Source of the DNA: Glandiceps talaboti
Lineage: Eukaryota; Hemichordata; Enteropneusta; Spengelidae
NCBI RefSeq assembly: GCF_964340395.1
Contig: NC_135552.1
Span: 12,242,194 to 12,306,193 of the forward strand
DNA length: 64,000 nt
Direction of reading: 5' to 3'
Part shown: in pieces, positions 41,401-44,400 of the stretch
How the letters are laid out: every line of letters begins with the position of its first letter
Position numbering within the stretch: the first letter of the stretch is position 1
Translations under genes and position numbers: made by a program
The notes under the pieces: generated by a model
Told to the model about the DNA's origin: nothing
Database searches by the model: none
Seen by the model: only the letters and a program-made list of their open reading frames with translations

Positions 41401-44400
41401 AGGTTCTGTCAATGTAGTAATTGATACATGTGTTTATTTGACAGGTTCCCAAAGAAACTAATTCAGACCTACTCTGTATTCCCTAATCAAGATGAAATCA
41501 GTGATGTAGTTGTACAGCCTTATAATTCACTGCTAACATTAAAAAGATTGACACAGAATGCTGACTGTGTGGTAAGTAGGCTCTGTCCCTTCAATACCCC
41601 CCCCCTCCATAGTACCTGTTCCCAAAAAGGATCTACCTATTATCAATATAAGATCTGTGAGTAATTTGTAAGTTCATAGTTCCAATGTCATTGCTATTAA
41701 TTCAAGCATCTCTCATGTTCTCAATTATATAAACATTGCCTTCTTTGATCTGCTGCCGAAGTACCGTATTTTAGACATGATCTGAACTGTCATAGGAAGA
41801 TATGTAGTGGATAATGATATTCCTGACTATCTGACAATATCTTGTGTTGCATGAAGACAATCAACCAATCAATTTATTTCAGAACATGTCACAGTAAGAC
41901 CACAGGCCCAAAGAGTAAACAGTAGTACAAATACTTCAGTTCATAGAGGGAGATTCCATTCTATTTCTCATTGCAAAATAAATGATTGAAGCTATAGTAT
42001 TTAGATAGGTTACATCATCAGGATTCAAAAGTGAAGTGAACTTTTCATCCCTGTCAACAATTCAGTTGAATTGTATGGTGACAAAGCTGCTACTAAAATC
42101 ATTCTAAAATCAAAAGTTCACACAGAATATGATTACATGTAATATATACTAGTGGTTGTTATCTCAGTCAACATAGACATAGATATAAGTGTAGTTTTGT
42201 ACCAAAGTCTATGTAATTCATTGATAATATATCATCAGTGTGCCCTCTAACCCAATTTGACGTGCCACTGATGCACACAATTTCTAGTGATGCACCAAAA
42301 TTTGGTGTTCCCGTATCTCTTACTATGTGGTGACTCACAAGAGATGCCAGTTTTTCTCATTTTGACTGACATTACAACAACAAAATTTGCCATCATTAGA
42401 GGGCACACTGCATATCATTATCACTGCTAAATGTACTGGTTAGTGTGTGTTGTGAGTTATCTTCTACTTATTATCTGATTTGTTTATTTAAAAAATATTC
42501 TAATAAATTATTTATATGTCTTAGATTTTAGTATCTCCAAAAAATTTAAGACGTGTTGTAAATATACTCTGCAAATTGTAATGAAAATTGTTACGATTTT
42601 GCTCGTCTTACCAAATGGCATTGTTGACAAGCAGTTTAGTGATTGCTTAATAATACCATATAGTTGTAACATCTGTACAATAATATCATAAAAACAGATG
42701 AAGCTTTTATGTTTTGCATAAATCCAGTGACACCATATCATTTCTGTGGATATCACAATTCTCACAATATCTAACAATTCTCATTCGAATGTTGACAGGT
42801 TGTTATAGATAACACAGCTTTGAACAGAATAGCCAGTGATAGACTCCATACACAGAATCCGGATTTTTCACAAATCAATCAAATGGTAAGATATGCTACT
42901 TTAAATTTCAGATTTGCTTCCAAGAATTTTTTGACTCTGTGACTAGAAATTTTCATTACTAAGGGACGATCACACAATGACGCGCAAGCTCTACAAACAA
43001 GCATTGTTCATTCATTTAGGTCAAAACCTATATAAAAACGAGTTCACTATTAAATAGATTACATAGTAACATTGTGACTTGCACAGCAAACAATAGCAGG
43101 GGATTAGTACCTTTGACTAATGTTCATTGTAACCAGGTTTCTGTTAAAAAGTGAGTTTGTACTAGTGAGGTATGACTGTACATGTATAGCAAATGACTTG
43201 ATAACCCATTGATTGCAGGTATCAACTATTATGTCTGTAAGTATATGTACTTGCTACCAATAACAAATGACTTGATAATCCATTGATTGCAGGTATCAAC
43301 CATTATGTCTGTAAGTATATGTACTTGCTACCAATAACAAATGACTTGATAACCCATTGATTGCAGGTATCAACCATTATGTCTGTAAGTACAACAACAC
43401 TAAGATATCCAGGCTATATGAACAATGATTTGATTGGTCTCATTGCATCACTGATTCCCACACCAAGATTACATTTCCTGATGACTGGATATACACCATT
43501 GGTTACAGACCAAAAGGTAAGCAAGTGTACATCAAAAAAATTATGAGCATAGAGACTTGAGCGATCTTAAACTCTCCCACAGCCTCAGGAGCATTGCTGG
43601 CAGAAAGCAGCTGTTTTGTATTTACCAATATCTACAACATACTTGTACTGTGTACCCTCATCAACTACATAGGGCTAACCATTCCTTGATGTGACTCGGT
43701 GTTATTGCGACGGTCCCGATGGGTTGCAATAACACATCAAGGAATGGTTAATCTTATGTAGTCAATGAGGGTGCACAGTACAAGGATATTAGATAGAGTA
43801 CAAGTATGCCGTATATATCGGTACATACAAACGCCACTTTCTGCTTGTGACGCTCCTGAGGCTGTGAGAGAGTCTAGAGCCATATATGACAATAGTACAT
43901 CAAGTATCAGTCTGTTAACAAACTCAGAAATTAAAACTACTGTTGCAACATTTGATGTAACAAGCTGGAATTAGACATCGATGTAACATTATGAGGAGAC
44001 TACTACAGCCTAAGAACACTATGGGTATCTACTAATACCAGAGACAGACATTTCATGTCCCCTCATTGGCTGTTCCAGACATCCAGACAATAATTTTCCT
44101 CTATACTAAAGAAATACAGACAATTTAATTTCTTTTACTTGTGTATTTGTTGGTTAGATTACTACCATTAGGAAGACAACAGTACTGGATGTGATGAGAA
44201 GACTACTACAGCCTAAGAATACCATGGTGTCTACTAATACCAGAGACAGACACTTTCACCATTGTTATATCTCCATACTCAATATTATACAAGGAGAAGT
44301 TGATCCTACACAGGTCAGTCTGCATAGACATCTTCATTTTTAACCTTTTAAATACATTGACTCAGTAACCTGGGATGTGACCTTTCACCCAGTAAAGCAT

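Follow-up and report, generated by a model that had tools for sequence, protein, structure and literature searches.

A gene for gamma-tubulin lies on the plus strand of the window, the whole stretch of 64,000 nt of Glandiceps talaboti DNA analysed here. Its coding part and the neighbouring features are located as follows.

2355-4030, plus strand: neighbouring SNF2-family helicase
15239-15844, minus strand: neighbouring C2H2 zinc-finger protein
37982-38299, minus strand: neighbouring RETREG-like reticulon-homology start
38462..46618, plus strand: gamma-tubulin gene, coding part, 11 exons, 452 amino acids (gene model, Pfam, solved relatives, genome search)
49354-58501, minus strand: neighbouring pieces with PBZ matches and with PARP and BRCT matches that are both below cut-off

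The encoded protein matches the Tubulin and Tubulin_C domains of Pfam, and all 12 of the 12 best solved relatives listed for it are gamma-tubulins, in agreement with the name given to the gene by an earlier sequence-only reading. No second gamma-tubulin gene was detected in the assembly (590 Mb, 47 contigs) among the 93 of 104 candidates scored. Their matches of 70-98% identity are inside the window and all others listed are at 28-46%, a level that would suit alpha- and beta-tubulins. The ten introns of the gene range from 439 to 1227 nt.

The junction of exons 6 and 7, which is in phase 0, is where the gene departs from a plain layout. The features around it are these.

42886..43366, plus strand: intron 6 as predicted, 481 nt, or 333 nt when the two extra units are left out (gene model)
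43186..43259, plus strand: copy 1 of a 74-nt unit (TRF, exact copy boundaries)
43219..43236, plus strand: potential microexon m1, VSTIMS, ACT at codon 3 (sequence, frame)
43260..43333, plus strand: copy 2 of the unit (TRF, exact copy boundaries)
43293..43310, plus strand: potential microexon m2, VSTIMS, ACC at codon 3 (sequence, frame)
43334..43391, plus strand: copy 3 of the unit, 58 nt, continuing into the true exon 7 (TRF, self-alignment)
43367..43516, plus strand: exon 7 (frame and homology)
43385..43390, plus strand: internal GTAAGT of exon 7 (U1 duplex of -6.8 kcal/mol, rank 24 of 547 GT)

TRF finds the array at 43186-43391 with a period of 74, 2.8 copies and 96% matches, and self-alignment gives 97.0% identity over 132 nt (E 9.9e-58), far above the chance expectation. 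Both confirm the earlier claim of a 74-bp unit present three times at the intron 6/exon 7 junction, the third copy being 58 nt long. The span proposed for it, 43191-43394, misses the exact bounds of the array by a few bases.

A full unit takes 33 nt from the end of the intron and 25 nt from the start of the exon, with a filler of 16 nt. The intron part carries the acceptor TTGCAG in each unit, and the exon part of a full unit is the 18 nt encoding VSTIMS followed by GTAAGTA. The copies vary at three positions of the unit (4, 20 and 42); two private bases are in copy 1 and one in copy 2, while copy 3 agrees with the majority throughout.

The filler is identical in both full units, and its longest exact match in 38000-48000 outside the array, on both strands, is 9 nt, so copying from nearby was rejected as its source. 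Because the filler is shared by both units without a nearby match longer than that, the simplest history is duplication with insertion and then expansion. A tandem duplication over the intron 6/exon 7 boundary would have come with insertion of the filler, and a single unit-length expansion would then have given the three acceptor copies. The array is probably young. It was rejected as a dispersed repeat, having one genome match in a search subject to a proviso on very common words, and as a known RNA element, since 38000-48000 gave no Rfam hit that reached the gathering score.

The two potential in-frame microexons of 18 nt had been noticed before, and at the DNA level they exist, each flanked by CAG upstream and by GTAAGTAT downstream, at 43237 in copy 1 and 43311 in copy 2. 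They can be told apart by the last base of codon 3, which is T at 43227 in m1 and C at 43301 in m2. The GTAAGT reported at the same point within the true exon is likewise there (GTAAGTAC at 43385). It arises because VSTIMS is followed by V (GTA) in the Glandiceps talaboti protein, whereas the residue is A in all five solved gamma-tubulins shown. These five are gapless at the VSTIMS position in the displayed alignment, and among the three acceptors the third (43367) is the sole one yielding the standard gamma-tubulin sequence.

Several splice products were modelled. Joining of exon 6 to 43367 gives the normal 452-residue gamma-tubulin, the only standard protein among them. Inclusion of one or both microexons keeps the frame and adds 6 or 12 residues, making proteins of 458 or 464 residues. 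The first or second acceptor used with the exon 7 donor extends exon 7 (forms of 224 and 298 nt) and leads to a stop at codon 246. Splicing from the internal GTAAGT of exon 7 to exon 8 is in frame and gives 408 residues, 44 fewer.

The analysis shows the sequence, frame, site strengths, distances and background duplication rate; the array history, the acceptor choice, the decay of aberrant mRNA and the neutrality are inferred. Donor strength was taken as the energy of the duplex formed with the U1 5′ end, and all 547 GT in the gene were ranked by it. The microexon donors, which lack an exonic G (TCT/GTAAGT, the slash marking the splice point), have -7.3 kcal/mol and ranks 14 and 15. The ten true donors have -7.4 to -12.1 kcal/mol, so each pairs with U1 better than the microexon donors, though the weakest by a gap of only 0.1 kcal/mol. 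Recursive splicing at CAG/GTATCA was rejected, as it has -7.2 kcal/mol in place and ATG/GTATCA, formed after exon 6 joining, has -4.2.

The three array acceptors have 9 pyrimidines of 17, fewest among the gene's ten acceptors, and their pyrimidine stretches are the same except for one base in copy 2. A single branchpoint candidate, guessed from the yUnAy motif within 50 nt, is common to all three. From this guess, the introns between m1 and m2 and between m2 and exon 7, both 56 nt, leave 38 nt between donor and branchpoint, and the 130-nt intron between m1 and exon 7 leaves 112 nt. The minimal productive distance was 46 nt in human constructs (PMC11291888), and this animal's limit may differ. 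Exons no longer than 51 nt are more prone to skipping (PMC4317164).

The three acceptors are nearly equal in sequence, and therefore strength cannot choose among them, while distance and exon length can. For a microexon, the route from m1 to exon 7 is the comfortable one, because the 56-nt introns have the 38-nt distance. At 18 nt, the segments are within the 51-nt length of microexons and would count as such if included in mRNA.

Proven recently gained introns are few, as stated in PMC4974935. In the AGGT model of Rogers, as outlined in PMC4974935 and PMC2891723, the duplication lies within exon sequence and leaves the peptide or mRNA as it was, examples being ATP2A1 (PMC4974935) and Drosophila introns (PMC2891723). 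The gamma-tubulin array resembles that model in that a short intragenic tandem duplication supplies the splice sites. It differs in that its unit straddles an existing acceptor, with 33 nt of intron, 25 nt of exon and 16 nt of filler. AGGT is present in the unit, but at the pre-existing acceptor.

Moreover, the microexon products of 458 or 464 residues would not be the 452-residue protein. Since the unit reaches beyond exon sequence and the protein would be altered, the strict model does not fit and exonic AGGT duplication was rejected. The sequence-only reading had called the array a textbook AG/GT exon-segment intermediate for intron gain, and this we do not sustain.

A closer parallel is the potato RdRp gene PGSC0003DMG402000361. 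There, as described in PMC4974935, a tandem duplication crossing the intron-exon boundary recruited a cryptic exonic GTAAG as the donor; the acceptor, the pyrimidine tract and the branch site were inherited and an exon segment was added. The gain is backed by junction RNA reads, genomic reads and related species. By that account, the gamma-tubulin array is alike in its boundary-crossing tandem duplication, its inherited acceptor signals and its exonic GTAAG, which GTAAGTAT places as a donor in both full units. The potato gene has two copies and a spliced intron proven by RNA, whereas gamma-tubulin has three copies, a potential 18-nt exon and a potential 56-nt intron.

Tandem exon duplication also repeats exon sequence in the adjoining intron but takes an exon with both its sites, while the array here repeats no more than the 25 nt at the exon start. 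At the DNA level, the array belongs to a known kind and holds a potential new intron. An earlier report of this gamma-tubulin case was not found among the best matches by title and abstract start in the openly licensed literature.

Two other clear duplications are in the same gene.

40927..41030, plus strand: tandem copy of the exon 4 3′ end and the following intron, in intron 4 (79% over 112 columns)
43991..44055, plus strand: copy of the exon 8 middle, in intron 7 (91% over 66 columns)

In the former, the donor CAG/GTATGT is altered to AAGTCAC via a 6-nt gap. A possible remnant of the exon 5 start in intron 4 (41350-41371, 22 nt, 91%) is too short to rely on. Intron 7 also holds a near-palindromic, MITE-like element of 309 bp (43568-43876) of a dispersed family, with at least 97 matches among those listed (counted on both strands and with some places listed twice, after scoring of 40 of the 838 first-look candidates).

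For the genomic background, 20 stretches of 10 kb were sampled at round-number positions on 10 contigs, and a short tandem duplication cluster was defined by a period up to 400 and a length of at least 50 nt. The 200-kb sample has 37 such clusters, at least one in 16 of the 20 stretches, and they make up 9.1% of its 194,826 unmasked bases. The window is poorer, with 9 clusters and 3.3% of bases.

Two of the 20 gamma-tubulin junctions (exon 4 end and exon 7 start) are inside short tandem duplications, and the probability of two or more at the sample rate is 0.55. Among 20 hand-picked kinase exons, 6 of the 40 match edges are in duplications (P 0.15), these being profile-match edges rather than proven splice sites. 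Copies of exon sequence within 800 bp were found for two of the 20 kinase exons and for four of the 11 gamma-tubulin exons, one per set being just 21-22 nt. Duplicate pairs with one constrained copy stay recognisable longer.

Thus, junction duplication is ordinary for this genome and the gamma-tubulin junctions are duplicated at the background rate. Measured by the window's own lower rate, however, the count in gamma-tubulin stands out more than it does at the sample rate, and, likewise against this view, all three clear duplications of the gene touch coding exons. The numbers are small.

We consider it probable that intron 6 absorbs both upstream copies and that use of the third acceptor yields the normal protein, the upstream ones being decoys that could at times be mis-spliced. 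The exon 6 donor would join 43367, both upstream copies would be removed within intron 6, and their acceptors would act as near-equal decoys. An upstream acceptor used with the exon 7 donor would bring the early stop and, as expected, nonsense-mediated decay. Used with its own GTAAGTAT, it may give a rare product of +18 nt, chiefly by splicing of m1 to exon 7. Most probably the additional copies are harmless and neutral.

For absorption by intron 6 speak the standard protein, obtained among the modelled products from 43367 alone, the early stop from an upstream acceptor lacking its donor, the microexon donors, weaker than every true donor, the 38-nt distance below the human-construct limit, the skip-prone length and the background rate of duplication. 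The other two exon-fragment copies of the gene, 79% and 91% identical, also sit in introns, and a compensating second gamma-tubulin gene, among the candidates scored, appears to be absent. Against it, site strength gives the third acceptor, itself among those poorest in pyrimidines, no advantage, and the microexon donors are only slightly under the weakest true donor.

It is unlikely that m1, m2 or both are spliced in a noticeable share of the mRNA to add 6 or 12 residues, as a recent gain of an intron in the manner of potato RdRp. A CAG acceptor, the shared branchpoint candidate, the GTAAGTAT donor and the kept frame would allow it, and the layout equals the confirmed potato case, but the exon is just 18 nt and the m1-m2 and m2-exon 7 introns are short of donor-branchpoint distance. 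The insertion would also land in the stretch gapless in all five alignments, which we take to be the core helix H7, and there six residues do not make whole helix turns.

The near-equal acceptors and the 224- and 298-nt forms would alternatively suit a regulated poison extension, in which early-stop transcripts made with the exon 7 donor lower the gamma-tubulin output; this we regard as very improbable, such duplications being common across this genome. Only a slight chance is given to an assembly error or a copy-number polymorphism with one or two units on other chromosomes. The array is known from one assembly and tandem arrays with such units can differ in copy number, but the copies are distinguishable at three positions and the 29-Mb contig suggests long-read assembly; a polymorphism may nonetheless exist.

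With its three near-identical acceptors, this conserved gene, of which no second copy was detected, offers a natural competition between equal splice sites with distinguishable products. If the copies are unused, they would show how cells ignore near-perfect decoys, and if used, they would document the birth of a microexon. More widely, splice junctions are repeated often enough here to study the fate of extra near-perfect sites. It is unlikely that, of the splice junctions multiplied at the background rate by the frequent short tandem duplication of this genome, some, m1 included, are actually spliced. If true, there would be a living population of nascent introns and microexons, with ages from near-identical to decayed.

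The surrounding genome offers further junction duplications of differing ages. Short tandem duplications lie over the exon-match edge in four other kinase exons (L032, L033, L039 and L040). In another, which is presumably NEK-like (L042:955-1629; G000:C11, within 10675794-10677627), the 3′ end and the donor GAG/GTAAGTTTG form an 84-bp tandem array of 8 repeats whose reading frame is open throughout. This eightfold donor array mirrors the acceptor array of gamma-tubulin.
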